Shown piece after piece: positions 7,517 to 57,906 of a DNA stretch of 64,000 bases. The notes below the pieces were generated by a model. That model searched no databases. It worked only from the letters and a program-made list of their open reading frames with translations, and had not been told where the DNA came from. Source of the DNA: Marinococcus sp. PL1-022 (lineage in GTDB: Bacteria > Bacillota > Bacilli > Bacillales > Marinococcaceae); assembly GCF_033845285.1 (NCBI RefSeq), contig NZ_JAWXCX010000001.1:1317495-1381494 (forward strand), in the 5' to 3' direction. Position 1 is the stretch's first letter. Every line of letters begins with the position of its first letter. The position numbers and the translations under genes were made by a program.

Positions 7517-8520
7517 ATGTTGCAGCTTTGGAAACAAATGTTGGTCATGGATTTAAATATTGGAAATCATCGACAATATCATCCAACCGATGGCTTTGCG
7601 GGTCAAGCCACGCGGTAGGTTTTATACACGCTCTCCAGAGTCACGCCCGCTCGGGCGCGCTGGTAAATATCCGTAATCTCCCGTCGCCGGTGGTCCTGGT
7701 GACTGGCATGAAAGGCTTCGCTGATGGTACCCGCAAACGTCCAGGCCAACGGTTTGGAGGAGAAGCAGGTAGCGTCGGATCGCGGAAGCGATCCGCAGCC
7801 GGTACCCGCCCATCGACAGCTTGCCCTTGGCTTCCTGGAAAAAGGTTTCAATTGCCCACCGGTTCTGATACCAGGATAAGACATCCTCCGCAGTCATCGA
7901 GGAATCGGTGGAAAAGAAAAACCGGTACGCTTCGTGAGAAGCAGAAGCTCGGGAACCAACGACGACGCCTGAGAGGCCGCCTTTCAACCGCCCCTGAAAC
8001 CGCACCATTTCATACGTGGTGATCCGGACGGTCACAAGGTCCGGATCTTCCACCTGCCGGGCCCGTTGGGCCCAGTCTCTGGCTGGTAACGGCATGGGGG
8101 CCGTGTCGAGCACCCGGTTGGCGGAGGACGCCTGCCGCTGGAGGTGCTGCAGCACCGAGCGCTGGAGCTTGCGCTCCAGGGCATGGTCATCCACCCGGGA
8201 CGTGCGAAAAAACCGGGTGACCGACGAATGGTGAGCATCATGATTGGCAGCTTCCTGGAGGGCCTTCACGCTCCCGTTGCGGTGCTCCCGGGTCCAGCCT
8301 TCCAGCAACTTCTGCATATGATGAGCGGCTGGGGCAGACATAAAGAACCGGAGGTTTCATTGATCAAAGGCATTGGCGATGCAGGAGGAATATGATACGG
8401 TAGATATGAGGCAGAATCCTTTCTCGATGGTGTTTTCGTCGATGTCATCGTACCGTATCAACGGGGATTCTGTTTCTTTTTTATTGGTAATGGAAATAAT
8501 TGTTAGCAAACCTGCAACAT
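7517..8520 (-). mobile_element. Deleted IS701/IS4-like insertion sequence with terminal inverted repeats
   Basis: The ends are 21-base imperfect inverted repeats: ATGTTGCAGCTTTGGAAACAA at the left and, read inward from the right, ATGTTGCAGGTTTGCTAACAA (18 of 21 match). Between them lies a transposase pseudogene of much higher GC than the flanks. No clear target duplication is visible. At about 1.0 kb it is shorter than a complete element, in line with the loss of the middle of the transposase gene. Confidence 0.7.
7603..8341 (-). pseudogene. IS701/IS4-like transposase, internally deleted and frameshifted
   Basis: The N-terminal part (HMQKLLEGWTREHRNGSVKALQEA...HHSSVTRFFRTS) and the C-terminal DDE region (RFFFSTDSSMTAEDVLSWYQNRWAIETFFQEAKGKLSMGGYRLR) are recognisable. 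They are joined at VLDTAP-MPLPARDW, so the segment that should carry the first two catalytic Asp (VDDT and MDSWY-like) is missing. A one-base shift in the CAAACC after RRYLLLL moves the tail into another frame, which reads PLAWTFAGTISEAFHASHQDHRRREITDIYQRARAGVTLESVY. The product cannot be an active transposase. Confidence 0.8.
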
Positions 8521-39707: not shown

Positions 39708-39991
39708 CTTTTTTTATTATTTATCTTCACTGTTTCTCATTCTTAATAACACCTGGCTAAGGCCGAAAACTTCAGGAAGGGGCCAATAATTAGAGCCAGC
39801 GCAAAACATCAGCGAAATAAAATTTTAGAGGTGCTTGAAGGATATGAATATTTCTTTTAAACCATTAATACATATACGAACTTAAAAAATATAACCAAAG
39901 TTAAATATAAAAGAATTGACAATTAAAGCTTAAAATTGCAAACTACAACAAATATTATGATACAAAGTGGTTACAGGCTGGAGGCATAAGA
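39708..39991. other. Intergenic region before the AraC-GH39 gene
   Basis: About 285 AT-rich bases with no gene. TTGACA at 39916 could be a -35 box. GGCTGGAGGCATAAGA just before the GTG start is the ribosome site. Confidence 0.4.
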
Positions 39992-42508: not shown

Positions 42509-42558
42509 ACATGTTTTAATTTTACCAACACTAATTGAATAAAAGGTTAATTTTTGGA

Positions 42559-42590
42559 AAAGCATTCCTCTTTAAATGGGAATGTTTTTT
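42559..42590 (+). terminator. Terminator after the AraC-GH39 gene
   Basis: Stem AAGCATTCC / GGGAATGTT followed by TTTTT. Confidence 0.7.
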
Positions 42591-42636
42591 TAATGCAACC
42601 CTTATATACTGATGGCAGTTAAGACATAGATAAAAA

Positions 42637-42650
42637 TGTCAACGCTTACA
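42637..42650 (+). promoter_or_regulatory. CcpA cre site before the permuted GH3 gene
   Basis: TGTCAACGCTTACA fits the cre consensus TGWNANCGNTNWCA at every position. It lies 18 bases before the start codon and downstream of a TATACT box (42605), a place where CcpA would block transcription as a roadblock. Confidence 0.8.
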
Positions 42651-42667
42651 AGTAGGGGGGAGGGTTC

Positions 42668-45448
42668 ATGGGGATGGACCGGTCAACATTTAAAAAGACA
42701 GTAAAAGAACAAAAACAAGAAGCCAAAAGGAAGGTTAAAGCGTTAAGAGAAGAGAAAAAGAAACGAAAACCGCTTTCCAGAGAAGAAAAGAAAAATCTTC
42801 GAAAAGAAGATAAAACGAAATTAAAGCAATGGAAGCAGGATATTAAGAATACCGATGACAAAAAGGAAAGAAAAGCGAAAAAGAAAGGCTACAAAAAATA
42901 TAAAAAAATCAGGCGGCGCCCTTACATACTAACTTCATTATTGCTGGTTGTTTTATTAATAGGAGGCACTCTTCTTAACTGGTATTTAAGCGCGACTGCT
43001 CCATTAACCGATGAGCAGGCAGGAGCAGCGGAGGAATCAAGGGAGGTCGCAGAGCAGATGATGGAGGAAAGCATTGTCATGCTGAAAAATGATGATATTC
43101 TTCCGCTCGAGGACAAAAAGGTAAACGTATTTGGTACCGGTTCAGCGCGTCCGGTATTCAGCGGAGGCGGCGCCGGGTCTATCGATGACACGAAGGCTGA
43201 CGGCCTGTTCAAAGCGTTGGACGACGAAGGCATAAGCTACAATTCCACACTATATAACGTGTATAACAACTATGAAAAAGAAGAGGAAGCCTCCAAAGAA
43301 GATTTCGAGCCATCGGACCCGTCACTTCTTCAGACGCTTCTTCCAAACGCGGTGGGCTTTTTGCCTTATAACCCGGAAGAAATGCCTGTTTCGGAGCTTC
43401 CTGGCAATACCCTCGAAGAAGCAGTAAATTATTCGGACACAGCCGTCTATACTATTTCGAGAGTAGGTTCTGAAGCGATAGATTTATCGATCGAAGACAC
43501 GCAGCTCAGAAAAGAAGAGGAAGAAACGATTGCAGCATTAAATGAAAACTTTGAACATGTCATCATTTTGGCAAACACATTTAATGCCTTTGAATTTGGG
43601 TTTATAGAAGAATATGAAAACATTGACGCTCTTCTCTGGGTAGGTGGACCAGGGCAGTACGGAACACATGCGATTGCCCGGGTATTAAATGGAGAAGCCT
43701 CTCCGTCGGGAAGGCTGCCGGATACTTACGCCTATAATGTTGAAAGCAACCCTGCCATTGAAAATACGGGAGACTTTGAATATGTAAATGAAAATGGAGA
43801 GGAGACCGGGCGTCATTTTGTTAACAACGAAGAAGGTATTTATGTAGGCTACCGGTACTATGAAACCTTTCTGACAGATGAAGAATATGAAGAAACCATT
43901 CAATTTCCATTTGGCTATGGGCTTTCCTATACAGAGTTTGATTGGAACGTTGAAAATACGAACTTTACAGATAATGAGATTTCTTTTGACGTCAATGTTA
44001 CGAATACAGGTGATGCTGCCGGCAAAGATGTCGTTCAGGTCTATTTTTCTCCTCCATACAGCGAAGGGGGCCTGGAAAAGGCTGATACGGAACTGGGAGG
44101 ATATGCGAAAACCTCCGAATTGGAACCAGGGGAATCAGAAATGGTGACTGTCAGTTTCCCGGTAAAGGATATGGCCACCTATGACCAGGAGAATGAAGAA
44201 GCCTGGGTGTTGGAGGAAGGGGATTATGAGTTGAACGTTTCTTCTCATATCCGGGATATCAAAGAGTCTTCCTCATACACAGTGGAAGAAACCACAGTTT
44301 ACAATGAAGACGGGGCAACCGGCACTCCAATTCAAAATCGGTTTGAAGACGCTGAAGGTGATTTAACGTATTTATCCCGGGCGAATCCGGAAGAAACCTA
44401 TCCTGAACCCCCTTCGGAAGACGACTTATTGATTCCGGACATTGTGGAGGAAACGACCGATTACGAGCATGAAGCGACAACGGAAGAAACTCCTCCGACG
44501 GACGTGGATAATGATATTATGCTGGAGGATCTTCAGGGAGTGGATTATAATGATCCTCTTTGGGAGGATTTCCTGGATCAATTTACCGCTGAAGAGATGA
44601 TTAAATTAGCAGGCGATGGCGGTTATTGGTCTGTGCCCATTGAACGCTTAGGTATTCCGGAAACATCCATGTACGACGGGCCTTCGACGATTAAAAACTT
44701 CTTTGATTCATGGTCTTCGGTGGCTTTTCCGGCAGGGATAAATGTTGGCAGCACGTGGAATAAGTCATTAGTCGAAAATATGGGTGAGTCCATGGGGCAG
44801 GAAGCCAATGCTTATGATGTGGAAGCTGTTTATGCACCGGCGCTTAATATGCACCGCACGCCTCTGGGGGGCAGGAACTTCGAATATTACTCGGAAGATC
44901 CGCATCTTGTCGGTGAAACAGGGGCCGCCTACATCAGAGGCTTGGAGAGCACTGATACGACCGCTGTCATGAAGCATTTTGTTGGAAACGACCAGGAAAC
45001 GAACCGGGCGAATAACGGCCTGTATGTATGGTCGAATGAGCAGGCTTTACGGGAAATTTATCTTCAGCCATTTGAAACCGCGGTGAAGGAAGGTGAGCCT
45101 CACGGAGCGATGTCCTCCTTTACAAGAGTAGGTCCTACATGGTCCGGTGGCAGTGACGAATTGCTGACTGAAGTGCTGCGTGAGGAGTGGGGATTCGAAG
45201 GCTTTGTTATTACCGATGCAGGCATAGGGCCGCAGGGCGAACACTTTGACCCGCTGCAGGCGATCCATGCCGGAAATGATATGATGCTTGCTTTTCCGAT
45301 TAACCTGCCGATGGCAAATAAATTTGAGGAAGAGCTGGCAGAGCACCTGGAAGAAGACGAAACAGAAACAGTGGCAGGGCTTAGAAAAGCAGTGCACAAC
45401 ATCTGCTACTATATTCTTCAAACAAACGAAATGAAAAGCGACGAGTGA
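42668..45448 (+). CDS. Membrane-anchored GH3 beta-glucosidase-like enzyme with permuted domains
   Basis: A 926-residue protein. Residues 1-82 are extremely basic and charged (KKTVKEQKQEAKRKVKALRE...), followed by one helix (about 86-106), so the body is outside the membrane. The GH3 C-terminal sandwich comes first (ESIVMLKNDDILPL, GSGSARP-like, EGIYVGYRYYETF), then a fibronectin-III-like domain, then an acidic linker. The GH3 TIM barrel comes last (GGRNFEYYSEDPHLVGE, MKHFVGNDQE, EGFVITDAG with nucleophile D850). This is the reverse of the usual order. All landmark motifs are present, so activity is plausible. The ATG follows TAGGGGGGAGGG. Confidence 0.88.
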   Translation: MGMDRSTFKKTVKEQKQEAKRKVKALREEKKKRKPLSREEKKNLRKEDKTKLKQWKQDIKNTDDKKERKAKKKGYKKYKKIRRRPYILTSLLLVVLLIGGTLLNWYLSATAPLTDEQAGAAEESREVAEQMMEESIVMLKNDDILPLEDKKVNVFGTGSARPVFSGGGAGSIDDTKADGLFKALDDEGISYNSTLYNVYNNYEKEEEASKEDFEPSDPSLLQTLLPNAVGFLPYNPEEMPVSELPGNTLEEAVNYSDTAVYTISRVGSEAIDLSIEDTQLRKEEEETIAALNENFEHVIILANTFNAFEFGFIEEYENIDALLWVGGPGQYGTHAIARVLNGEASPSGRLPDTYAYNVESNPAIENTGDFEYVNENGEETGRHFVNNEEGIYVGYRYYETFLTDEEYEETIQFPFGYGLSYTEFDWNVENTNFTDNEISFDVNVTNTGDAAGKDVVQVYFSPPYSEGGLEKADTELGGYAKTSELEPGESEMVTVSFPVKDMATYDQENEEAWVLEEGDYELNVSSHIRDIKESSSYTVEETTVYNEDGATGTPIQNRFEDAEGDLTYLSRANPEETYPEPPSEDDLLIPDIVEETTDYEHEATTEETPPTDVDNDIMLEDLQGVDYNDPLWEDFLDQFTAEEMIKLAGDGGYWSVPIERLGIPETSMYDGPSTIKNFFDSWSSVAFPAGINVGSTWNKSLVENMGESMGQEANAYDVEAVYAPALNMHRTPLGGRNFEYYSEDPHLVGETGAAYIRGLESTDTTAVMKHFVGNDQETNRANNGLYVWSNEQALREIYLQPFETAVKEGEPHGAMSSFTRVGPTWSGGSDELLTEVLREEWGFEGFVITDAGIGPQGEHFDPLQAIHAGNDMMLAFPINLPMANKFEEELAEHLEEDETETVAGLRKAVHNICYYILQTNEMKSDE

Positions 45449-45509
45449 ATTACGCGTTTAATTGGATAAAGAAGCTGCATGAGACGAACAATACAAGGTG
45501 GTAAACAAA

Positions 45510-47855
45510 ATGCTGAAAAACCAAACAATCATTGATCAGATGACGCTGGAAGAAAAAGCTTCCATGATGTCCGGGAAAAATTTCTGGAACACCCAGGACA
45601 TCAAGCGGTTAAATATCCCTTCCATCATGCTGACTGACGGTCCTCATGGTTTAAGAAAGCAGGGAGGAAGAGCCGATCATCTGGGGTTAAATAAAAGCAT
45701 ACCCTCCACGTGCTTTCCCACTGCTGCAACACTGGCGAACAGCTGGGACGAAAACCTGCTGCATGACGTTGGGAACTATATCGGCAGCGAAGCCACTGAC
45801 GAAGATGTAAGTGTATTACTTGGGCCTGGTTTAAATATTAAACGAAATCCGCTGGGCGGAAGGAATTTTGAATATTTTTCCGAAGATCCTTTTCTCAGCG
45901 GAAAATTGGCCGCAAGCATGACGAGGGGCATTCAGAGTAATGGTATATCAGCATGCCCGAAGCATTTTGCTGTTAACAGCCAGGAGCATTTGAGAATGAC
46001 CATTGATGAAATCGTCGATGAACGGGCTCTGCATGAAATTTATTTGGAAGGTTTTCGCTTGGCTGTCGAAGAAGGTAAACCGAAAACATTGATGAGTGCC
46101 TACAATAAAGTAAACGGCGAATATGCCAATGAGTATTTGTATCTGATGAAGGAAGTGCTGTATAACCAATGGAATTATGAGGGCGTTGTCGTTACGGATT
46201 GGGGAGGAAACAATGATCGTATCAAGGGGCTGCTGGCGGGAAACCAGCTTGAAATGCCCTCGACCGGCGGTATCACGGATCAAGAAATCGTGCACGCAAT
46301 AAAATCGAATGAACTGGAGGAGAACGTTTTAGATCAAAGCGTGGACCGGCTGCTCACTTTAATCTTTGATACCCGGATTGCTGATACGAAAAAGGCAGTG
46401 GATACGAAGCACCATCACAAAGCAGCCGTGGAAGCGGCGAAGCGGTCAATGGTTCTGCTTAAAAACGAACAAAACATTCTTCCACTGGAAAATGAACAAA
46501 AGATTGCGGTGATCGGTGATTTCGCAGCTGTACCGAGGTATCAGGGCGCAGGAAGCTCCCTGGTTCAGCCAACCAGTCTGTCGAGTCCATGGGAAGCTTT
46601 GCAGAAGACAACGTTAAATCTTTCAGGCTATGCCAAAGGATTTAAAAGGTTTGGTGGAAACAGCGCAAAGCTTAGGCAGGAAGCTGTTACGCTTGCCAAA
46701 GAGTCAGACGTTGTTCTGCTGTTTCTCGGTTTAGATGAAGGAAGTGAAGCGGAGGGCATAGACAGAGACGATATGAAGCTGAGAAACAACCAGTTAAAGC
46801 TGGCCGAGGAGCTGACAAGCATTCATGATAACGTAGTTGTCGTTCTTTCAGGCGGTTCTATTGTTGAAATGCCTTTCGCTTCGAAAGTTCAGGGCATTCT
46901 CCATGCTTATCTTGGCGGTCAGGGTATGGGAGAGGCTTTATGTGAAGTGCTTCAGGGGATATATAATCCAAGTGGCAAGCTGGCGGAAACGTATCCTGTT
47001 CAATACAAGGATGTTCCATCAGCTCCGTACTATCCTGGCTGGGAAGCAACTGCTGAGCATAAAGAAAGCATTTATATCGGTTACCGGTATTTTGAGACCA
47101 AAGAGGTGCCAGTGCTGTTCCCGTTTGGATTTGGGCTGTCCTACACCAGCTTTGAATACAGTAATATGAAGGTTAACAATAAGGATATTTCATTGACGAT
47201 AAAAAATACAGGCTCCCGGGCAGGGGAAGAAATTGCCCAGCTTTACGTTGAAGCATTGGATTCGCAAATCTTTCGGGCCCGAAAAGAATTGAAGGGGTTT
47301 GTAAAAGTGCATCTGCAGCCTGGAGAGGCGAGAGAAGTAACCATTCCGTTTAATAATAAACAGGCCGCCTACTATAACACAGAGCTTCGTGCATGGTCTC
47401 TGGAAGCAGGCAGGTATACATTAAATATTGGGAGCTCCGTGCAGGATATAAGACTGGCCGAAACTATAACGGTTGAAGGAGAGGGTCACACTCTTCCCTA
47501 TAATAAAGAAAAACTGCCCTCCTATTACCGGGCAGATGTGCATCATATAAAAGATGAAGAATTTCATGCTCTTTTGGGCTATACACCGCCCCCACTCAAA
47601 TGGAACAGAAAACAGGGCCTGAGCCATAACGATACACTTGCCCAAATGAAATATAAAAAAGGCCTGGGTCAGCTTGCCTATCTTTTAATTGTGTCGATAA
47701 GAAAAGGGCTGAAGGCAGCTAATAAGCCGTTACAGGCAAATAATGTGATGTTCATCATGAACATGACCTTCAGGCAGATTCCACGATTTACAAGCGGTAA
47801 AATCAGCAAAAAAGCAGTCAGTCGTGTATTGAAAGTAATTAATTTAGGACGATAA
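45510..47855 (+). CDS. GH3 beta-glucosidase-like enzyme, usual domain order, cytoplasmic
   Basis: A 781-residue enzyme with the TIM barrel first: MLTDGPHGLRKQ, GGRNFEYFSEDPFLSGKLA, CPKHFAVNSQE, VVVTDWGGNNDR (nucleophile D230). Then come the C-terminal sandwich (AAKRSMVLLKNEQNILPL, AGSSLVQPTSLSSP, PFGFGLSYTSFEYS) and the fibronectin-III-like end (ELKGFVKVHLQPGEAREVTI). A 100-residue basic tail of unknown role follows. No signal peptide is seen. The start is the ATG after AAGGTGGTAAACAA. It follows the permuted GH3 gene by about 60 bases and is probably co-transcribed, giving one outside and one inside glycosidase. Confidence 0.9.
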   Translation: MLKNQTIIDQMTLEEKASMMSGKNFWNTQDIKRLNIPSIMLTDGPHGLRKQGGRADHLGLNKSIPSTCFPTAATLANSWDENLLHDVGNYIGSEATDEDVSVLLGPGLNIKRNPLGGRNFEYFSEDPFLSGKLAASMTRGIQSNGISACPKHFAVNSQEHLRMTIDEIVDERALHEIYLEGFRLAVEEGKPKTLMSAYNKVNGEYANEYLYLMKEVLYNQWNYEGVVVTDWGGNNDRIKGLLAGNQLEMPSTGGITDQEIVHAIKSNELEENVLDQSVDRLLTLIFDTRIADTKKAVDTKHHHKAAVEAAKRSMVLLKNEQNILPLENEQKIAVIGDFAAVPRYQGAGSSLVQPTSLSSPWEALQKTTLNLSGYAKGFKRFGGNSAKLRQEAVTLAKESDVVLLFLGLDEGSEAEGIDRDDMKLRNNQLKLAEELTSIHDNVVVVLSGGSIVEMPFASKVQGILHAYLGGQGMGEALCEVLQGIYNPSGKLAETYPVQYKDVPSAPYYPGWEATAEHKESIYIGYRYFETKEVPVLFPFGFGLSYTSFEYSNMKVNNKDISLTIKNTGSRAGEEIAQLYVEALDSQIFRARKELKGFVKVHLQPGEAREVTIPFNNKQAAYYNTELRAWSLEAGRYTLNIGSSVQDIRLAETITVEGEGHTLPYNKEKLPSYYRADVHHIKDEEFHALLGYTPPPLKWNRKQGLSHNDTLAQMKYKKGLGQLAYLLIVSIRKGLKAANKPLQANNVMFIMNMTFRQIPRFTSGKISKKAVSRVLKVINLGR

Positions 47856-47986
47856 ATATATTGAGTAATTTTTGTGATTGACGTGTTCAATGCTCAGTTA
47901 CTAGTTATTAAAAATAAGCATCAAGGCTTCTGAAAAGATCAGTATTACTTTCAAAAGATTCTGTGCGATAATGAACCATTTTTTTT

Positions 47987-48007
47987 AAACCAGCTTTCAG
48001 CTGGTTT
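47987..48007. repeat. 21-bp hairpin direct repeat, left of IS1182-like element
   Basis: AAACCAGCTTTCAGCTGGTTT, a 9-bp hairpin, occurs in the same direction on both sides of the element. It looks like a duplicated target that was the terminator of the GH3 unit. Confidence 0.75.
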
Positions 48008-49532
48008 CAGACTGTCGACAATGGCTCTAATTTTAGAGCGTGTCGGCAGTTTTTTTATGCTATGATAAAAAGAAATAGCCTGGAAAGGGGTTATGGCGCA
48101 TGATGAGGCGGGATACGGAAAAAGCTCGTTACCGGGAAGCCACCATTCAGTTGGATCAGTTAGTGCCTGCGGACCACCTGGTCCGCCAGATCGAGGCCGC
48201 GCTGGATTTTTCCTTCATTTACGACGAAGTCGCGTCCCTCTATGCCCCCATCGGCTGGCCGAGTATTGACCCGGTCCGGCTGGTGAAAATGGTGCTGCTC
48301 CAGTATTTGTTCGGCATTCGCTCCATGCGTCAGACCGTTCGGGAGATCGAAACGAATGTGGCCTACCGATGGTTCCTCAGTTTGGACCTCCTGGAGCCCG
48401 TGCCGCATTTCTCCACCTTCGGCAAGAACTACACACGCCGGTTTCGGGACAGCGGGTTGTTCGAAGCGATATTTGAACGGGTGCTGGGAGAAGCCGTGGC
48501 CGCCGGCTTTGTGGATCCATCCGTCTTTTATATCGATGCCACCCATGTGAAAGCGAACGCCAACAAGAAAAAATTTGATCGGGTTCAGTTGGCGGCCGAA
48601 GCCCGGGCCTACCAGGATCAACTGGACGCCGAAATTCACCGGGACCGCGAGGTCCACGGAAAAAAGCCCCTGCCTCCCGCCCGCCGCGAACCGGGCGGAC
48701 GGGAGGTCAAACAAAGCACGACGGATCCTGACAGCGGCTATTACGTCAAAGATGAACGGGAGAAGATGTTTGCCTACAGCTGGCATACCGCCTGCGACCG
48801 GCACGGGTTTGTGCTCGGAGCGATCGTGACCGGAGCTAATGTTCATGACAGCCGGATCTTTCATGAGCTGTTGGCGCAGGTGATGGCCCGGGCGGGCCGT
48901 CCGTACGCCGTTGCGGTGGATGCCGGCTATAAAACCCCGGCCATTGCTCATCTGCTTCGCGAGCAGGCCATTCGCCCGGTCATGCCTTATACCCGGCCCA
49001 AGGGTCTGCCGGGACGCTTGCGGAAACAGGACTTTGTGTATGATGCCTATCTGGATGCGTATCTCTGTCCCGAGCCTCAGGCCTTGCGCTACCGCACCAC
49101 GAATCGGGACGGTTATCAGGAGTATGTCTCGGATCCCGTCATTTGTCAGTCCTGCCCGCTGCTCGAGACCTGTACCCAAAGCCGGGATCACCGGAAAGTG
49201 ATCCTCCGCCACGTCTGGCAGGACGATCTGGATGAAGCCGAACACCTTCGGCATACCCCGTGGAACCGGAGGACCTATGCGGAACGAAAAGAAACCATCG
49301 AACGGATTTTTGCGGATCTCAAACAAAAGCATGGTTTGCGCTGGACGCTCCTCGCCGGAGGGGCACGAAACACCGCGCAGGCGATGCTTGTTTATGCGGT
49401 GATGAACCTCAAAAAACTCGCCACCTGGCGGTGGCGACAGACGTGCGCCGGCCGTTGGATGCTTCTTTTTCTCTCAATGGCACAAACAAAGGCCTCCGAA
49501 ATTCATTTTCGGAGGCCTTTGTCTACAATCTG
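48008..49532 (+). mobile_element. IS1182-family insertion sequence, intact
   Basis: About 1.5 kb with inverted ends CAGACTGTCGACAATGG and (from the right) CAGATTGTAGACAAAGG, 14 of 17 identical. It is flanked by 21-base direct repeats that are themselves a hairpin. Its GC content is much higher than both neighbours. Just inside the left end a hairpin with GACTGTCGACA / TGTCGGCAGT and TTTTTTT can block read-through into the transposase gene. Confidence 0.85.
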
Positions 49533-49533
49533 A
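48100..49533 (+). CDS. IS1182-family transposase
   Basis: A 477-residue DDE transposase. The N-terminal domain (RDTEKARYREATIQLDQLVPADHLVRQIEAALDFSFI) is typical of the family. Catalytic Asp residues are in YIDATHVKANANK and VAVDAGYKTP, the Glu in ERIFADLKQKHGLRWT. A Cys-rich insert (CQSCPLLETC) lies between. It is full length with no break, so it may be active. The stop codon TGA lies in the right inverted end and its last base belongs to the flanking repeat. Confidence 0.92.
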   Translation: MMRRDTEKARYREATIQLDQLVPADHLVRQIEAALDFSFIYDEVASLYAPIGWPSIDPVRLVKMVLLQYLFGIRSMRQTVREIETNVAYRWFLSLDLLEPVPHFSTFGKNYTRRFRDSGLFEAIFERVLGEAVAAGFVDPSVFYIDATHVKANANKKKFDRVQLAAEARAYQDQLDAEIHRDREVHGKKPLPPARREPGGREVKQSTTDPDSGYYVKDEREKMFAYSWHTACDRHGFVLGAIVTGANVHDSRIFHELLAQVMARAGRPYAVAVDAGYKTPAIAHLLREQAIRPVMPYTRPKGLPGRLRKQDFVYDAYLDAYLCPEPQALRYRTTNRDGYQEYVSDPVICQSCPLLETCTQSRDHRKVILRHVWQDDLDEAEHLRHTPWNRRTYAERKETIERIFADLKQKHGLRWTLLAGGARNTAQAMLVYAVMNLKKLATWRWRQTCAGRWMLLFLSMAQTKASEIHFRRPLSTI

Positions 49534-49553
49534 AACCAGCTTTCAGCTGGTTT
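49533..49553. repeat. 21-bp hairpin direct repeat, right of IS1182-like element
   Basis: Same 21 bases as at the left end, here followed by TTTT, so this copy is a ready Rho-independent terminator on the plus strand. Confidence 0.75.
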
Positions 49554-49601
49554 TTTTGTTTGTGATAACGTTGCAGATTTATATTTATTAAACATATTAA
49601 A

Positions 49602-49994
49602 TTACTGCAGTAACTTGTTACAAAGTTCAATTATTTCAGCTGCGTACTTTTCTTTTCTTTTTTTTAAAAGGAAGGTATGGATTGGATACGTTAATACGAT
49701 TAAGATTATCCCTATCATTCCGGTAATAATTAGAACGAGCGACTGGTTAAAAGCAAGATACAAGCTGATACCGCTACCTATTATGAGAAAACCTACTAAA
49801 CGAAGAAAAAGAGCGGCTAAATAAGCAGGCATTTTTACTTTTTTATCCATATATTTTATTTTTTCAAAAGTGCTGTTCGATTCATTTTCATCTAAATACT
49901 GGTATCTAATCTTTTCGACTTCTTTTCGGACGGCTTCTTTTTTTTGACCGCTATAAAAGAAATTGTAACTATTATTATTTTTATTAGAAATCAT
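49602..49994 (-). CDS. Small membrane protein encoded with a two-component system
   Basis: A 130-residue protein: a soluble Asn/Lys/Glu-rich N-terminal half (SGQKKEAVRKEVEKIRYQYLDENESN), two helices (LAALFLRLVGFLIIGSGISLYLAF and LVLIITGMIGIILIVLTYPI) and a basic tail. The ATG follows GGAGGAATAAAAT. It starts 17 bases after the histidine kinase stop, so it is the third gene of that operon. No family recognised; it may be a target or modulator of the kinase. Confidence 0.6.
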   Translation of the reverse strand: MISNKNNNSYNFFYSGQKKEAVRKEVEKIRYQYLDENESNSTFEKIKYMDKKVKMPAYLAALFLRLVGFLIIGSGISLYLAFNQSLVLIITGMIGIILIVLTYPIHTFLLKKRKEKYAAEIIELCNKLLQ

Positions 49995-50011
49995 ATTTTA
50001 TTCCTCCGGCA

Positions 50012-51067
50012 TTATTTCTTAATTTTTACTTTAAAAGTAGTGCCTACGCCCACTTCACTCGTAACATTAATATCTCCCTTTAAAATATCAATGACTTTTT
50101 TAACCATCGCAAGTCCTAAGCCGTTGCCTTGGTGTATGGAATTATGATTGCCCTGATAGAATTTTTCGAAAATATGTTTTCCTGTTTCGTGGTCTATCCC
50201 AGACCCAGTATCCTTTATCAATACTTCGATCGAGTTTCGTTGATCATAAAGGGAAACTGTAATAACTCCGCCATAATTTGTGAATTTGATGGCATTTGAT
50301 ATGAGATTGCTCCATACAATGTCTAATAAATCTTTATCACAGGCTATGAAACTATTTTCTATTTCTGTTTCGACCGTTATATTTTTTTCGGTTAAACTTT
50401 CCTCAAAATAAAGAACGTTGCAACGTAGTTGTTCACTTAAGTTATATTCCTCTGCTGTAGGATATATTTCTTGATTCTCAAGCTTATTCAACTTCAAAAT
50501 ATTCGTTATCATTCGAGATAAACGATTTGTAGCATCCACAATTGTTTGGGCATTACGTATTCGTTCAGCTTCACTAAGGGCAGAGCTTTGTTGCAGGGTG
50601 GCATAATTCTGAATAATAGCAAGAGGTGTTTTTATCTCGTGAGAAACATTGGATATAACATCTGTTCTTAATGTTTCTAATTTAGCTAATTCCTCTGTCA
50701 TTCGATTTATGCCATCGATGATTTCGTCAAATTCATTTACCCGTTTTGTATGAATAGGAGAAATAAATATCTCGAAATTACCTTTTGACATTTTATCCAG
50801 TGCATTCAATATTTTTTTAACAGGTAGTCCAATTGTATACTTTCTTCTCAAACTATCGACTAAAGACATTAATAAACTTATAAAAACTAAATTGCCTAAA
50901 ATTAAAAACTCCACATTGAAAAACGTAGGATTTTCTTGATGCCTAATGAGATTAGTATATAAAGCGAGGTTTACCCCACAAACTGACATAGTTAAAAAAA
51001 AGAACGCGAAAAAATTATAAAGAGAAAATAAACCATATTTTCCTTTTTTATTGCTGTTACCATTCAT
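50012..51067 (-). CDS. Sensor histidine kinase (HAMP, HisKA, HATPase)
   Basis: About 351 residues. Two helices enclose a short outside loop (about residues 20-40 to 55-80), then HAMP, then the H-box NVSHEIKTPLAIIQNYA with the phosphorylated His. The ATPase part has VWSNLISNAIKFTNYGG (N box), KDTGSGID (G1), FEKFYQG and GNGLGLAMVKK (G2). The start MNGNSNKKG is chosen because GATGGAG lies ahead; an ATG 14 codons earlier overlaps the regulator gene and is an alternative. The short extracytoplasmic loop suggests it senses the membrane or a partner protein. Confidence 0.9.
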   Translation of the reverse strand: MNGNSNKKGKYGLFSLYNFFAFFFLTMSVCGVNLALYTNLIRHQENPTFFNVEFLILGNLVFISLLMSLVDSLRRKYTIGLPVKKILNALDKMSKGNFEIFISPIHTKRVNEFDEIIDGINRMTEELAKLETLRTDVISNVSHEIKTPLAIIQNYATLQQSSALSEAERIRNAQTIVDATNRLSRMITNILKLNKLENQEIYPTAEEYNLSEQLRCNVLYFEESLTEKNITVETEIENSFIACDKDLLDIVWSNLISNAIKFTNYGGVITVSLYDQRNSIEVLIKDTGSGIDHETGKHIFEKFYQGNHNSIHQGNGLGLAMVKKVIDILKGDINVTSEVGVGTTFKVKIKK

Positions 51068-51095
51068 GATATTCTCCATCTCTTTTTTGATATTA

Positions 51096-51776
51096 TTACT
51101 TTTCTTCATGTAGAACTGCTTTATAACCAAGTCCATGAACTGTGACAATCTCAAAAGCTCCATTATTTTTAAATTTATTGCGTAGTTTAGTAATATACAC
51201 ATCTACTGATCGGCTTTCCGATTCCGTTTCATATCCCCAAAATTCATCCATTAATTGAAGGCGTGTAAATGTTTTTTTAGGGTAAGATAAAAGTTTAAAT
51301 AAAACATGAAATTCTCTTACAGTTACTGGAATTTCTTGTTTTTCCAAATAAATCGTCATTTCATCTTTATCTAAAACCAGTTTTCCTATAGTGATTTGAT
51401 TGTCATTTGCGATGTTGGCTCGACGAATCAATGCTTGGATACGCAAAATTAGTTCATCCAATTCGATAGGCTTTACCATATAGTCATCAATATCCAGCCG
51501 AAAACCTTTTTTCTTAGAATAAAGATCATCTAATGCTGATATAAAGAGTATCGGCATTGTTTTATTAAGTTTTCTCACCGAACCAGCCAATTCAAATCCA
51601 TCTATTCCCGGCATCATAATATCTGAGACAATAATGTCAATCATTTGTTCAGATAATTCCTCTAACGCCTTGTTTGCATCCGTACAGCTGACAACAGAAT
51701 ATCCATGGGTGCGTAAATGACTGGTAACGATTTTATTTAGCGCATCATCATCTTCTATAACTAATATTTTATTCAT
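51096..51776 (-). CDS. OmpR-family response regulator
   Basis: A 226-residue regulator. The receiver has ILVIEDDDALN, the phosphorylated Asp in DIIVSDIMMPGIDG, and SALDDLYSKKKGFRLDIDDYMVKP with the conserved Lys. The C-terminal winged helix contains VTVREFHVLFKLLSYPKKTFTRLQLMDEFWG and RSVDVYITKLRNKF. The ATG follows GGAGGAAGTAAACTG. It leads the minus-strand operon with the kinase and small membrane gene and faces the MMPL exporter gene, a likely target. Confidence 0.93.
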   Translation of the reverse strand: MNKILVIEDDDALNKIVTSHLRTHGYSVVSCTDANKALEELSEQMIDIIVSDIMMPGIDGFELAGSVRKLNKTMPILFISALDDLYSKKKGFRLDIDDYMVKPIELDELILRIQALIRRANIANDNQITIGKLVLDKDEMTIYLEKQEIPVTVREFHVLFKLLSYPKKTFTRLQLMDEFWGYETESESRSVDVYITKLRNKFKNNGAFEIVTVHGLGYKAVLHEEK

Positions 51777-52237
51777 CAGTTTACTTCCTCCTATTAATTG
51801 ACGTAACAAGGTGGCAAAAGGATTGAAAAACCTACAAATTAAGTATCTTGTTTAGTCGTTTATCCTAAAATTCTTATATTTCTCCCCTGAATCGCACGAA
51901 CTGCAACATTAATGCCCAAAAAACTAAAATTATGTTCGATCATTCATTCTGAGAAATTAGTATAGCTCTCTCCTCTTTCATTATACGAAATAAATATTAG
52001 CCGTCCTATAGCCATGAGAGGATTAAGTATGAAAGGGAATCGGCATAATTTTATTAAAAGTCTCTCTCTAGTTATAATACGCTTTCTGCGATTTTTAAAT
52101 ATTATTTCCTAGAAAAGATTAGATTTAACAATTTAGAAACATTTCTTTTATATTTCGCTAATATGTTTGGTCCATAATACTTTTTGTGAAACAAGCATTT
52201 CGTACTGAAATGGAAGAATTGGGAAGGGGATTTATTA
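51777..52237. other. Intergenic region between response regulator and MMPL exporter
   Basis: About 460 AT-rich bases with no gene seen. It must hold the two divergent promoters. No clear dyad or direct repeat for the response regulator could be picked by eye. AGGGGATTTATTA is the ribosome site of the exporter. Confidence 0.4.
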
Positions 52238-54427
52238 ATGGCTAAATTGTTATTTAAGTTAGGACATTGGGCAGGAGGAAACAGTAAGAAAGTAATTGGA
52301 TCTGTGTTTCTTCTTTTATCTATTTTAGCAGGCATTGCTTTAAGCATGGGAATGGCTTTTGATGACGACATATCTATGCCGGGTACGGAATCCAAAGACG
52401 CTATGGAGGTAATGGAGAAAGAATTTTCTAGTGGGCGAGAAGGCGGGCAGGCATACATTGTCATGAAGGCTGATAATAATGAAAGTTTAAGTTCGGCAAA
52501 ATATACAACAGCTATGGACGAAATGCTTAATGAAATAAAAAAAGACGAGGCAGTCACAGCTGTTGCCACACCTGAAGAACTGGATAACATAAATACGGAG
52601 GAACAGATCGGTTATGCGACCGTTACTTATGATTCGGCTGCTGAGAATGTCACACAAAAGTCCAAAGATAACGTTGAAGATAATTTGAGTATTGTTCGTG
52701 ACGCCGGCCTGGAAGCGGGATTAGGTGGCAGTGTGGAGTTTGAAGCAACCGAAGCTGGTGGGGGCGCTGGGGAAATTATCGGTGTAGCGCTGGCATATGT
52801 AATACTAGCTGTCACTTTTGCTTCTCTTGTGATTGCCGGTATGCCAATAATAACAGCTCTAATTAGTCTGGGAAGCGGCATCCTGTTAATCATCATTGGG
52901 ACAAACTTCTTTGCTATATCATCTGTATCACTTTCTCTAGCAGGGATGCTAGGATTAGCAGTTGGAATTGATTACGCTCTATTCATTTTTTCCAGGTTCA
53001 AACAGCAATTGCGAAAAGGCAGCTCTGTCCAAGAGTCTATTGCTATAGCAAATGGTACGGCAGGCAATGCGGTTGTTTTTGCAGGTGTCACTGTCATTAT
53101 TGCATTATTGGGACTTTCCGTCGTTAACATTCCATTTATTACAGCGATGGGAATAGCTACAGCAGTCGTGGTTTTATTTTCCATCATTGTAGCTATCCTT
53201 GTTGTGCCAGCTATACTGGGGTTGGTAGGCCACAGAATGAAGGCAGAAAAGAACAATCGTTTTATTTTGAAATTGACTCGTGCTAATAAGAAAAATCAGG
53301 CTAATACTAATAAGTGGGGAAAATTTGTCACGAAGCACCCTGTTATGGTGGCAGTAGTAGGCATTGCTACTTTAATTATAATGGCAGTTCCGTTTTTCCA
53401 TTTAAATATAGGGCTTCCCAATGATGGAAATAAACCATATGAATTCGCAGAACGTGAGGGGTACGACCTGTTAACAGAAGGTTACGGAGAGGGATTTCAT
53501 TCAACGCTAGTAGCTATTGCAGACCCTTCCAACAATGCAGAAGCTTCTTCGGAAACAGTGAACTCTCTATCTGAAGAAGTAGGGCAATTAGATGGTGTCA
53601 AAAGTGTAACACCAGCGCAACCAAACGATACAGGAGAATTATATTTAATGAATGTGACACCGGAGAATGGGCCAAATGATCCTAAGACTAAAAAGGTAGT
53701 TGAAGAAATTCGAGAGCTCTCCGGTGAGGATAATGTAGACTTGATGGTGACAGGATCTACAGCGATTAATATTGATGTCACCAAACAAATCATGGATTCT
53801 CTACCAATGTTTGCAGCGCTCATCGTGTTATTTGCATTTCTGTTAATGATGATCGTCTTTCGATCGATACTTGTTCCATTGAAAGCAGTTTTAGGCTTTG
53901 TACTTTCTATCGGAGCCACTCTAGGGTTTACTGTTTTTGTAGTTCAAGATGGAAACCTTATTGACTTGTTTGGATTCCCTGGTTCGAGCGCCATCCTATT
54001 TCTACTTCCAGTGCTTTGCATAGGAATTTTATTCGGCCTATCAATGGATTATGAAGTATTTCTGGTAAGCAGAATGCGAGAAGAATTTGTGAAAACCGGT
54101 GATTCTAAAAAAGCTGTCTTAGCAGGAATGAAGGAAAGTGGGCCGGTAGTAACAGCAGCGGGCTTAATCATGATATCAGTATTTTCTGGCTTCATTTTTA
54201 CCCAAGATCCAATTATCAAGCAAATGGGGTTAACATTAGCATTTGGTGTGTTGTTTGATGCATTTATTGTGAGGATGATGATTGTGCCGGCTGTCATGAC
54301 ATTAATGGGGAACGCATCTTGGTATTTCCCTAAGTGGTTGGATAAACTACTGCCGAATTTCGATGTTGAAGGTGAAACACTCAAGGAAGAGGTGGATAAT
54401 AAATCAAACAATAGAAAAGTAAGCTGA
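52238..54427 (+). CDS. MMPL-family (RND-like) exporter
   Basis: A 729-residue protein with the MMPL layout: helix 1, a large outside domain (DDDISMPGTESKDAMEVMEKEF...), five helices with SLAGMLGLAVGIDYALFIFSRFKQQL (Asp and Tyr of the proton path), and a repeat of the same plan. The second half has ILFLLPVLCIGILFGLSMDYEVFLVSRMREEF. It would export lipids or hydrophobic drugs using the proton gradient; YdfJ is the Bacillus counterpart. The divergent two-component system probably controls it. It has a low-GC, AT-rich codon use like its neighbours. Confidence 0.9.
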   Translation: MAKLLFKLGHWAGGNSKKVIGSVFLLLSILAGIALSMGMAFDDDISMPGTESKDAMEVMEKEFSSGREGGQAYIVMKADNNESLSSAKYTTAMDEMLNEIKKDEAVTAVATPEELDNINTEEQIGYATVTYDSAAENVTQKSKDNVEDNLSIVRDAGLEAGLGGSVEFEATEAGGGAGEIIGVALAYVILAVTFASLVIAGMPIITALISLGSGILLIIIGTNFFAISSVSLSLAGMLGLAVGIDYALFIFSRFKQQLRKGSSVQESIAIANGTAGNAVVFAGVTVIIALLGLSVVNIPFITAMGIATAVVVLFSIIVAILVVPAILGLVGHRMKAEKNNRFILKLTRANKKNQANTNKWGKFVTKHPVMVAVVGIATLIIMAVPFFHLNIGLPNDGNKPYEFAEREGYDLLTEGYGEGFHSTLVAIADPSNNAEASSETVNSLSEEVGQLDGVKSVTPAQPNDTGELYLMNVTPENGPNDPKTKKVVEEIRELSGEDNVDLMVTGSTAINIDVTKQIMDSLPMFAALIVLFAFLLMMIVFRSILVPLKAVLGFVLSIGATLGFTVFVVQDGNLIDLFGFPGSSAILFLLPVLCIGILFGLSMDYEVFLVSRMREEFVKTGDSKKAVLAGMKESGPVVTAAGLIMISVFSGFIFTQDPIIKQMGLTLAFGVLFDAFIVRMMIVPAVMTLMGNASWYFPKWLDKLLPNFDVEGETLKEEVDNKSNNRKVS

Positions 54428-54561
54428 TTGTCTATTATTGATAGAGGAGCATTATACTGCTCCTCCTGGGTAAATTTTTAAAAGTTCTATTTTGCTCATC
54501 TAATTAATCAAGGAAATTATAAATTAATGCGCAAAAGGATTATGAAGATGGGGGCGTACTA

Positions 54562-54681
54562 ATGCTTTCTCTAATAAATTTAGACATGCCGAGATTACTC
54601 CTCATTGTTATTCTTATTTCTACGCATGTATTTGGTTTTTTATTCGCCGTTTATTTCTCTAGCCCGTTTAATAAAGAATGA
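54562..54681 (+). CDS. Tiny membrane protein, 39 residues
   Basis: ATG after GATGGGGGCGTACTA reads MLSLINLDMPRLLLIVILIS then THVFGFLFAVYFSSPFNKE and stops. One or two helices. It lies after the exporter gene and may be an accessory of it. Chance cannot be excluded. Confidence 0.4.
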   Translation: MLSLINLDMPRLLLIVILISTHVFGFLFAVYFSSPFNKE

Positions 54682-54919
54682 TTTCAATGTATATTGTAAG
54701 GTGAGTAATGCACCACTTGCAGGGCATTTGACTTTATTTTATCGTTTCACTAATTAGTAAGGTCAAATGAAAATATTTTGGTTAAAATTTATTTATCTCG
54801 CTTAAGTTTATATTTTAATGAGGCGAGACCAACCAAGCATTAAACAATTTTGCAAGACCGGAAGAGTAAAGAACATGGAATGGCTCAATGTAAATTAGCT
54901 GCTGTTGTTCCAAAAATCA

Positions 54920-54947
54920 AAGCCCTCTTCATTCACGAAGGGGGCTT
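54920..54947. terminator. Terminator, probably bidirectional
   Basis: Stem AAGCCCTCTTC / GAAGGGGGCTT with TTT on the plus side and GATTTTTGG on the minus side. Confidence 0.7.
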
Positions 54948-55055
54948 TTGTACGTCTAAGATTCTTTTAAAGACGGGGTAGTTTTATAAGTACGACACTA
55001 TCAAAAATTTTCTGTCCAGCCTTGGTCACCTATAATCACTGTTCTGTTAATAAAA

Positions 55056-55083
55056 CAGCCAATCTTCACCAGGAAGTTGGCTG
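55056..55083 (-). terminator. Terminator of the P450-Spx-ferredoxin operon
   Basis: Stem CAGCCAA / TTGGCTG plus further pairing CTTC / GGAAG; in the minus direction followed by TTTTATTAAC. Confidence 0.6.
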
Positions 55084-55124
55084 CTTTATCGATACTCTCT
55101 TGTAAGGTCACTTCAGCAGTAATG

Positions 55125-55361
55125 TTACTTTGGTTTGTTAAATGGATGGTCTGCTATTTGAATAGCCTCCGTGGGGCATTCTTCAAAGGCTTCTGCCAAT
55201 TGATCCATTTTCTCCTCGGGCATTGGTTGCGTGCCCTGATTCTCATCCAGCGTCACAAAAGCCAGGCCTTCGTCATCAAGTTCAAAAATGTCGGGGGCTA
55301 TTTCTTCACAATGACCACAACCGATGCATTCATCTCTGTCGACTGTCACATATCTAGCCAT
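55125..55361 (-). CDS. Ferredoxin, single [4Fe-4S] or [3Fe-4S] cluster
   Basis: A 78-residue ferredoxin: CIGCGHCEEIAPDIFELDDEG gives three Cys (CxxCxxC) and the fourth is in EECPTEAI. This is the small single-cluster type that often feeds electrons to bacterial P450s. Its start overlaps the end of the Spx-like gene by eight bases, and the P450 gene is third in line, so it is the likely electron donor for that P450. No ferredoxin reductase is encoded nearby. Confidence 0.9.
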   Translation of the reverse strand: MARYVTVDRDECIGCGHCEEIAPDIFELDDEGLAFVTLDENQGTQPMPEEKMDQLAEAFEECPTEAIQIADHPFNKPK

Positions 55362-55770
55362 TCGGAGCCTCCTTAGCGAGTAAACGAGTTTTTGCTTCTT
55401 GTAGATAGGAAGAGCGAGTGCTCTTCGGAATAAACTGGCGCATGTCTTCGTTGCTGTAACCTACTTGCAAGTGGTTATCATCATAAAGTAAGGGCTTTCG
55501 AACCAAACCGGGGTATTTGCTCATTAATTGAAATAGTTCCTGCATCGTCAACGTGTTCCAATCGATATTTAATGCCTGGAAATCCTTGGAGCGGGTAGCT
55601 ACAATGTCATCGGTGCCTTTTTCTGTTTTCCGAAAAATCTCTTTGACTTCATGAACCGAAAGGGGATGGGCTAAAATATTCCTTTCCTGAAAAGGAATAC
55701 AATGATCTTGTAACCATTTTTTGGCTTTTTGACAAGAAGCACGCCCCGGTGCCGTTAATAGCGTGACCAT
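55354..55770 (-). CDS. Spx/ArsC-family protein lacking the first redox Cys
   Basis: A 138-residue protein that matches Spx along its length: TLLTAPGRASCQKAKKWLQDH, then ERNILAHPLSVHEVKEIFRKTEKGTDDIVATRSKDFQALN, then KYPGLVRKPLLYDDNHLQVGYSNEDMRQFIP. In Spx residues 10 and 13 form a CxxC disulfide switch; here residue 10 is Arg and only C13 is left. The Gly and Arg of the RNA-polymerase alpha contact (GTDD...TRS) are kept, so it may still bind polymerase but without the disulfide switch. It lies between a P450 and a ferredoxin gene, an unusual place. ArsC-like enzyme function is less likely. Confidence 0.85.
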   Translation of the reverse strand: MVTLLTAPGRASCQKAKKWLQDHCIPFQERNILAHPLSVHEVKEIFRKTEKGTDDIVATRSKDFQALNIDWNTLTMQELFQLMSKYPGLVRKPLLYDDNHLQVGYSNEDMRQFIPKSTRSSYLQEAKTRLLAKEAPNG

Positions 55771-55821
55771 GAAAATGTCTCCTTGTTATCCGATGCGCTG
55801 AAGGCGCGTCGGAACGTGAAT

Positions 55822-57087
55822 TTACTGAAAGGAAAAAGTAACGGGCAGGGATTCGAGGCCTTGAGAAGATAGAACGAAACTCCATGTAATCTCCTCACGG
55901 GGATATTTCAGCTGCAGATTGGGCAGTCGTTGAAATAGCGTGGAGAACGCCACATCCCCTTCGATCCGTGCGAGAGGGGCTCCGAGACACATGTGTAGGC
56001 CCTGACCGAAGGCCAGGTGACGATCAATCTCACGCTGAATTTTCAGGTCTTCCGCTTCCGTAAACTTTTTTTCATCCCGGTTCGCTGACTTAACGAGCAC
56101 CAGCACCATGTCACCCTTGGCAATAGGCTGTCCGGCAATCTCGGTATCCTGCGTGGCATAACGTGGTCCAACAGCTGTCGACGGGCCATTGAACCGCAAC
56201 AATTCTTCGACTGCTCCCGGAACGAGACTGCGATCATTTTTTAAGGCCTGAAGTTCTTCCGGATGATCGAACAATTCAAAAGCTCCCGTCGCAATCAGGT
56301 TGGACGTCGTTTCATGACCGGCAAAAATCAACAGGGTGATCATGGAAATCAGCTCCGATTCACTGAGCCGGTCGTCCTCTTCTTCCATGGTTACCAGTTT
56401 GCTGATCAAATCATCTCCAGGAGCCTGTCGCTTGCTTTCCACCAGCTGTTTGGTGTATTTCCCGAATTGCTCCAGGTGTTTGGTGACGGCTGGATCCTGC
56501 CTGCCCCATCCCATTCCCTGGGCAATAGCTGAAGACCACGTCTGAATTTGTGCCCGATCTCCTTCCGGCACGCCGAGCATTTCCGAGATAACGTTAATCG
56601 GCAGTGGATACGCATAATCTTTCACGAGATCCATCTCGCCGTCCGCCTCCACGTTATCCAGCAGTTCGTCGGCAATTTCCTGCACACGCGGCCGGAGGCT
56701 TTCCATGTATTTCAGCGTGAACGCTTTGGACACTAAGGAACGTAGACGGCGGTGATCCAACCCATCCATAAAAAGCATAGATGTTCCTGTAAAAAACGTA
56801 TCCGGTGCCTCCTCATCAACGGAATCGGTTAACTGTTCCCGGACCCCGTCCGCATCAATGTAAGAAGGATCGACCGTAAACCCTTTTTTGTCTTTTAGTA
56901 CCTGCAGGGCTTCGTCCATATGGGGCACCAACCACGCCTGGTTGTCCTCGCTTCCCATCGGGTGCGGAATCGAAAGCACCGGGCCCTCCGCCCGTGCTTC
57001 GGCGAAAACCGAAAAGGGATCCTCTCTACTTTTTCCGCTGAGTATGCCTAACACTCTTGTCTGTACAGAATCGCTGGATTGATCCAA
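55822..57087 (-). CDS. Cytochrome P450 (CYP107-like)
   Basis: A 421-residue soluble P450. The I-helix AGHETTSN carries the oxygen-activating Thr, EELLRF is the ExxR region, and FGQGLHMCLGAPLAR holds the heme-ligand Cys near residue 367. FMDGLDHRRLRSLVSKAFT fits the CYP107-type substrate and proton region. It would hydroxylate a fatty acid, terpenoid or drug-like molecule with electrons from the ferredoxin. A TTG start after AAAGGACGATCACT is used. It leads the operon and lies divergent to a TetR gene. Confidence 0.93.
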   Translation of the reverse strand: MDQSSDSVQTRVLGILSGKSREDPFSVFAEARAEGPVLSIPHPMGSEDNQAWLVPHMDEALQVLKDKKGFTVDPSYIDADGVREQLTDSVDEEAPDTFFTGTSMLFMDGLDHRRLRSLVSKAFTLKYMESLRPRVQEIADELLDNVEADGEMDLVKDYAYPLPINVISEMLGVPEGDRAQIQTWSSAIAQGMGWGRQDPAVTKHLEQFGKYTKQLVESKRQAPGDDLISKLVTMEEEDDRLSESELISMITLLIFAGHETTSNLIATGAFELFDHPEELQALKNDRSLVPGAVEELLRFNGPSTAVGPRYATQDTEIAGQPIAKGDMVLVLVKSANRDEKKFTEAEDLKIQREIDRHLAFGQGLHMCLGAPLARIEGDVAFSTLFQRLPNLQLKYPREEITWSFVLSSQGLESLPVTFSFQ

Positions 57088-57130
57088 AGTGATCGTCCTT
57101 TCGTGATTGAGATAGCATAGGTTGTATAGA

Positions 57131-57148
57131 TTGATCCCTATAGATCAA
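57131..57148. promoter_or_regulatory. Inverted repeat, candidate TetR operator 1
   Basis: TTGATC-CCTATA-GATCAA, perfect 6-bp arms with a 6-base spacer, in the divergent promoter region of the P450 operon and close to its start. Confidence 0.55.
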
Positions 57149-57180
57149 GTATACTAACAGCATGTACGATAATGAACATA

Positions 57181-57212
57181 CTGTTCGGTAGAAATTTTTA
57201 AATAACGAACAG
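57181..57212. promoter_or_regulatory. Inverted repeat, candidate TetR operator 2
   Basis: CTGTTCG ... CGAACAG with an 18-base AT-rich spacer, in the middle of the divergent region. A further GTTCGTTAG follows at 57227. Confidence 0.5.
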
Positions 57213-57265
57213 CTGCAGACATTCGTGTTCGTTAGTCATGAAAATGTCACATTCAGCAGGGAGAA

Positions 57266-57844
57266 ATGATGAAATCTATATCTAAAACCGACCGGAGAGT
57301 AAAGTATACAAAAGCAGCTCTCAAGCATAGCTTGTTTGCATTAATGGAGGAGAAGTCCATTACATCTATTACAGTCACAGAGCTATGTAAGCATGCCGAT
57401 ATTAATCGAAATACCTTTTATGCTCACTATCGGTCGCCCAATGAATTGCTTGCTGATATTGAAAAAGAATTTACTCGAGCCTTTATTCATAAAGTGGAAC
57501 AATCTCTCGACCGCCCCCGATATAACGATCTCATGTACAGGCTGTGTGTCTACCTCGAGCAGAACAAGTCTACCTGCAGGGCGCTTGTGAAACTGCAAAG
57601 CAACCGGGAAGATGTCTTTACGCGTATCCATCATTACTTTCATCCGCGCATCGTTCAAAAATGGGTTCAGGAAAACTCTCTGGATTACTCCAATGTGGAT
57701 GCATTGTACGTATTTATTGCAGGGGGGAGCAGAGCTCTCATTGAAGAGTGGGTGGAAACGGACTTTCAGCAAAGTCCGGAGGAGATTTCGAGCATGATTG
57801 AAAATATTATGATTACCCTGCATAAGCACATGCTTTACAATTAA
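57266..57844 (+). CDS. TetR-family regulator
   Basis: A 192-residue regulator. The N-terminal HTH is complete: KYTKAALKHSLFALMEEKSITSITVTELCKHADINRNTFYAHYRSPNELL. The C-terminal part (CRALVKLQSNREDVFTRI and later FIAGGSRALIEEWVETDFQQSPEEIS) fits the DhaS-like group of TetR proteins. It faces the P450 operon across a region with two inverted repeats and probably represses it and itself. Start ATG ATG after AGCAGGGAGAA. Confidence 0.9.
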   Translation: MMKSISKTDRRVKYTKAALKHSLFALMEEKSITSITVTELCKHADINRNTFYAHYRSPNELLADIEKEFTRAFIHKVEQSLDRPRYNDLMYRLCVYLEQNKSTCRALVKLQSNREDVFTRIHHYFHPRIVQKWVQENSLDYSNVDALYVFIAGGSRALIEEWVETDFQQSPEEISSMIENIMITLHKHMLYN

Positions 57845-57906
57845 TGTTTGTATTTTGACAGCAAGATAACATGGTGAATTGTGCTGTTTTAGAAAGGAGC
57901 ATTCAT

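Follow-up and report, generated by a model that had tools for sequence, protein, structure and literature searches.

The window, a 64,000-nucleotide stretch of the genome of Marinococcus sp. PL1-022, carries three genes on the minus strand between positions 55125 and 57087, encoding a cytochrome P450, a protein of the Spx family and a [4Fe-4S] ferredoxin, as given in the preliminary description (Table 1). The closest solved structures to the P450 product were PksS and PikC. For its part, the ferredoxin matched Fer4_15 (5e-18) and the ferredoxin of PDB entry 1IQZ (E value, 8e-23), and it is the probable electron donor of the P450. The three frames had been described as overlapping, which holds for spx and the ferredoxin gene, with a shared segment of 8 nt and a likely translational coupling of the ferredoxin gene to spx, but not for the P450 gene and spx, which lie 51 nt apart. 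A gene for a TetR-family regulator is transcribed divergently from the P450 gene, and the gap between the two contains a perfect inverted repeat, a candidate TetR operator judging from its sequence, which is nearly conserved in a sister cassette of the same genome (see below) and in the congener G003. Neither a sigma-70 promoter nor a terminator stood out from chance in a consensus scan.

Table 1. Features of the P450-Spx-ferredoxin cassette (positions in the window)
Feature	Positions	Strand	Remarks
[4Fe-4S] ferredoxin gene	55125..55361	-	78 aa; CIGCGHC...CP, four Cys
spx stop/ferredoxin start overlap	55354..55361	-	8 nt, ATGGCTAG
Spx-family gene, accessory paralogue	55354..55770	-	138 aa; R10-x-x-C13; Cys at 13 and 24 only
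Shine-Dalgarno sequence of ferredoxin gene	55368..55374	-	AAGGAGG; within the spx 3' end that codes for the noncanonical C-terminal tail
spx codon 24, TGT (Cys)	55699..55701	-	Arg (CGT) in sister copy; just beyond helix 1, at the end opposite C13
spx codon 13, TGT (Cys)	55732..55734	-	second Cys of the former CxxC, retained
spx codon 10, CGT (Arg)	55741..55743	-	replaces first Cys of CxxC; TGC in sister copy
Shine-Dalgarno sequence of spx	55778..55784	-	AAGGAGA
Cytochrome P450 gene	55822..57087	-	TTG start; 421 aa; heme motif FGQGLHMCLG
Perfect inverted repeat	57203..57234		TAACGAACA-N14-TGTTCGTTA; between P450 and TetR genes
TetR-family regulator gene	57266..57844	+	divergent from P450; member of the duplicated cassette

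The product of the middle gene scored 161.4 bits against the NCBIfam model NF002459 (cutoff, 123) and 95 bits against TIGR01617, the model of the Spx/MgsR family (cutoff, 75), while the ArsC model TIGR00014 gave 24.7 bits, far below its cutoff of 106. It matched PDB entries 3IHQ and 1Z3E with an E value of about 1e-43, and its AlphaFold model (pLDDT, 83) aligned with the Spx-αCTD structures 3GFK, 1Z3E and 3IHQ (the C10S form) with Z scores of 19.8 to 20.1. The residues G52, which contacts the RNA polymerase α C-terminal domain (α-CTD), and R60 and K62, which take part in activation, are present in both P450-linked copies, that is, the window copy and its sister. By contrast, the N-terminal CxxC redox switch is lacking in the window protein, which reads R10-A-S-C13. 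Profile scores and residues thus bear out the earlier proposal of an Spx-like protein that keeps polymerase-contact residues and has no CxxC pair, and by sequence the protein is a switchless paralogue of the Spx family, not a redox-sensing Spx. Two further departures are common to both P450-linked copies. The RPI motif (R92-P93-I94) is replaced by KPL, with K92 in place of R92, a change that could weaken contacts with polymerase or DNA. In addition, the LAN-type end gives way to tails ending in ...LLAKEAPNG (window) and ...LLAKEAFDG (sister), so that the canonical C terminus recognized by ClpXP is gone in both. Compared with Bacillus subtilis Spx (SpxA; 1Z3E, 3GFK and 7F75), the window protein shares the predicted fold, about 50% of the sequence, G52, R60 and K62, and membership in an α-CTD-binding family, but differs in R10, K92, an extended C terminus without the ClpXP tag, and its location in a P450/ferredoxin operon.

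The fold is also that of ArsC and the glutaredoxin-like reductases (YffB and Escherichia coli ArsC), and the preliminary description had considered a role in electron transfer or repair. The protein would then have left transcription and become a monothiol, glutaredoxin-like partner of the P450 or the ferredoxin, a role consistent with the thioredoxin/ArsC fold, with the retention of C13, and with a gene placed between those of the P450 and the ferredoxin, the translation of the latter being likely coupled to spx. However, the Cys lost at position 10 is the equivalent of the catalytic Cys of ArsC, so that the window protein, unlike those reductases, lacks such a residue; G52, R60 and K62, which are Spx specific and unneeded for such a role, are kept; and orthologues of the P450 exist without Spx. 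Positive support for an electron-transfer role was not obtained, and we regard this reading as scarcely probable.

With regard to the origin of R10, the preliminary description derived it from TGT by a single T-to-C change. The CGT codon is indeed present and one step is possible, but the sister copy has TGC, two differences away, leaving the single step unproven. Since codon 10 is CGT in one copy and TGC in the other, the number of steps that led to R10 is uncertain. Cys and Arg are exchanged between the two copies at positions 10 and 24 (R10/C24 at 55699-55743 in the window; C10/R24 at 8297-8341 of the sister locus, L097), and no structural reason for this swap between the copies was found. 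C24 was considered as a new partner for C13 and rejected, given that helix 1 spans residues 11 to 22 in the predicted model and places the two Cys at opposite ends.

The consequences of losing C10 can be gauged from laboratory mutants. Activation of trxA and trxB in B. subtilis depends on the C10-C13 disulfide, whereas repression does not, and C10S Spx mimics the reduced form; C10S and C10A proteins retain repression and an identical, unchanged α-CTD interface (PMC2801614). In Staphylococcus aureus, an spxC10A strain is viable but sensitive to diamide (PMC12822559), and in Listeria an AXXA version of SpxA1 sustains only poor aerobic growth and fails to bring back resistance to diamide (PMC5400837). 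By analogy with these mutants, the R10 protein would be expected to bind polymerase and either to interfere or to have a selective action, without activating the thiol response. The same data weigh against the earlier idea that a redox-blind Spx produced with the P450 sets up the thiol-stress response in advance, since the disulfide is needed for trxA/trxB activation and the C10 or CxxC mutants are diamide sensitive (PMC2801614, PMC12822559, PMC5400837). The resemblance of the window protein to C10S and C10A (3IHQ; S. aureus spxC10A) lies in a change at residue 10 that removes the switch while C13 is kept; unlike them, it is natural, introduces Arg, and affects an accessory paralogue in a cell whose housekeeping Spx is intact.

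A variant of the earlier idea would make the protein constitutively active, with R10, beside K92 and close to the phosphate-binding site of R92, imitating the oxidized, DNA-engaging state, so that stress promoters would be turned on with every induction of the P450. Within the reduced C10S structure, C13 touches R92 and P93, and R92 bound a sulfate thought to mimic a DNA phosphate (PMC2801614), so that an added positive charge at this place is conceivable. Nevertheless, the published C10 and CxxC substitutions considered here lose either activation of the native trxB promoter or diamide resistance, and R92 itself is Lys here, which makes constitutive activity very unlikely in our judgment.

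Three Spx-type genes with good mutual alignments are present in the genome of PL1-022 (3.2 Mb). One is the window copy; another, at C1:1744269-1744682, is 91% identical to it; and the third, an ordinary Spx (CTSC), adjoins a MecA-like gene. The second of these belongs to a sister TetR/P450-Spx-ferredoxin cassette of approximately 85% identity (P450, 88%; ferredoxin, 90%; TetR, 83%), the homology between the loci extending from near the TetR stop as far as the ferredoxin stop, where it ends. The sister Spx retains C10 and has Arg at 24; R10 is therefore a difference between two cassettes within one cell. A relative with Cys10 and an ordinary spx role would speak against the preliminary description, and half of this was found, as Cys10 is present in the closest relative, which is encoded by the strain's own genome. 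In having an extra Spx beside the housekeeping copy, the strain resembles the bearers of SpxA1/SpxA2 pairs (Bacillus anthracis, Listeria and Streptococcus), although none of those was seen in a P450 operon, where the window Spx lies, and the Listeria pair retains CxxC (PMC5400837).

To judge selection, the two P450-linked spx copies were compared with each other and examined at 75 positions with a fixation of 95% or more among 43 ordinary Spx sequences. The dN/dS ratio between the copies was 0.13 (NG86) or 0.22 (YN00). Both copies keep 54 of the 75 fixed positions, and the only changes there unique to the window copy are C10R and L90V; these positions received 2 of the 12 amino acid differences between the copies, fewer than expected by chance (hypergeometric P, 0.007). 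These values point to purifying selection on the pair, within which a two-sequence comparison cannot single out the window copy. The dS values between the cassettes ranged from 0.28 to 0.34 at the spx-ferredoxin end to 0.65 for the P450 gene and 0.92 for the TetR gene, and the lower values of spx and the ferredoxin gene may reflect a later exchange between the copies. Sliding identity over both loci, checked for gene conversion of the spx-ferredoxin end, displayed no sharp breakpoint.

Outside PL1-022, the P450-Spx order foreseen as a point to survey in relatives was not conserved within the genomes searched. In searches of the family (29 genomes) and the order (397 genomes), the highest identity to the window protein outside the strain's own genome was 57%, reached by an ordinary Spx, and none of 399 genomes of the class held a close match to the sister Spx. 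A scan of contigs with the window Spx recovered only distant Spx proteins from phytoplasma (≤37%), a plasmid search gave an ordinary spx at best (52%), and a search of viral contigs returned no Spx. Orthologues of the P450 (57 to 85% identity) were found in 11 other genomes, with no spx within about 1.5 kb in any of them (0/11); in one of them (G120, L109) a ferredoxin gene directly follows the P450 gene. The corresponding locus of the congener G003 reads P450-TetR-MsrA, without spx or the ferredoxin gene. In the second genome of the species (G004), the sequence at about position 39724 of the window is joined to that at about 57906, the whole intervening 18-kb island being missing, and the sister cassette is missing as well. 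As far as sampled, both cassettes are thus strain-specific accessory DNA by sequence comparison.

This distribution bears on the main alternative, which is a serious one: drift in a redundant copy. The window cassette would be redundant to the C10 cassette and the housekeeping Spx, and R10 would be a tolerated, slightly degenerative change, a step toward loss of function with no new role. Such a reading is favored by the presence of R10 in one copy of one genome, by the location of the cassette on a strain-specific island with a transposase-like gene that the second genome of the species lacks, and by P450 orthologues that manage without spx elsewhere. On the other hand, the frame, the Shine-Dalgarno sequence, the overlap and the other invariant residues are intact, the overall dN/dS is low with replacements avoiding fixed positions, and the loss of C10 recurs in the same clade and is conserved across genera. 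On balance we consider drift possible but rather unlikely.

The recurrence was seen in a maximum-likelihood tree, in which the P450-linked Spx proteins fell within an accessory Spx group of Marinococcaceae together with L045 to L049 (UFBoot, 100; SH-aLRT, 98), on a long branch whose exact position is uncertain. Three members of this group have S10 and C13 (L047:3942-4373 in G021, L048:3539-3982 in G022 and L049:3675-4175 in G016); their genes lie near MarR-like genes, and the three genomes represent two genera of this family. By sequence, they are natural analogues of the laboratory C10S mutant. Given R10 in the window and S10 in these three, the accessory group has lost C10 on at least two occasions, a recurrence in favor of the view that a switchless Spx can be retained.

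The likeliest reading, to which we lend about even credence, is that the window encodes an Spx paralogue, redox blind and under TetR control, that serves as an α-CTD competitor or as a promoter-selective factor. A ligand of TetR, probably the P450 substrate, would lift repression, and P450, Spx and ferredoxin would be produced together. The Spx would bind the polymerase α-CTD as ordinary Spx does; without C10, no C10-C13 disulfide could form, and the protein would be locked in a reduced-like state, independent of disulfide stress, in which it would compete with activators for the α-CTD or work at a few promoters. Its amount would be the sole control, dependent on the TetR promoter and, with the C-terminal tag replaced, probably not on YjbH/ClpXP; because an AN-to-DD change at the end of Spx blocks ClpXP (PMC2801614), the replaced tail may stabilize the protein. 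The sister cassette, with its intact CxxC, would be the redox-responsive version. In this reading, co-transcription and TetR control are inferred, as are the binding to polymerase, the redox blindness, an action by repression or promoter selection, and protease resistance; the gene order, the family, the predicted fold, the loss of C10 here and in the clade, the retention of G52, R60 and K62, the loss of the canonical C terminus and the C10 sister are results of the analysis. Several points weigh against it: R10 is much bulkier than the Ala or Ser of the published mutants and R92 is Lys, so that contacts with polymerase or DNA could suffer; the R10 allele comes from a single assembly; and the pairwise dN/dS does not show constraint on the window copy in particular.

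In any case, the protein represents a genuine and unusual form of a known regulator, found so far in one strain and with a plausible but hypothetical role. No description of an Spx in a P450 operon, or of a natural Spx lacking C10, was found in the open-access literature. The question of why Spx functions persist once the redox switch is gone has so far been approached with engineered C10 mutants, and natural switchless proteins (R10 here, S10 in related genera) would allow it to be tested with evolved ones, of which the R10 copy shares its cell with a sister that is 91% identical and bears the switch. Coupling of Spx to a P450, if true, would tie substrate sensing to polymerase control. In its boldest form, which we find distinctly unlikely, a catabolic or detoxifying P450 operon would have captured a global polymerase-binding regulator and released it from control by redox state and proteolysis, the substrate-sensing TetR directly resetting polymerase through an Spx that is permanently off or, owing to R10 near the phosphate site, permanently on, beside a redox-sensing sister operon.

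Both cassettes have further genes around them. Directly downstream of the sister ferredoxin gene lies a second, different P450 gene (L097:9032-10285), 34% identical, with SDR-, TetR- and MFS-like genes after it; the segment that holds them is missing from the congeners. The island of the window (39724-57906; approximately 18 kb) carries glycoside hydrolases, a transposase, a two-component system, an MMPL-type transporter and the P450 cassette, and parts of it are syntenic with the congener G003. An open reading frame resembling an IS1182-type transposase, identified by eye, occupies 48100-49533, near the break of that synteny. At 50012-51809 and 52238-54427, the histidine kinase/response regulator pair lies beside the MMPL-type transporter, to which another locus of the genome encodes a relative with 53% identity.
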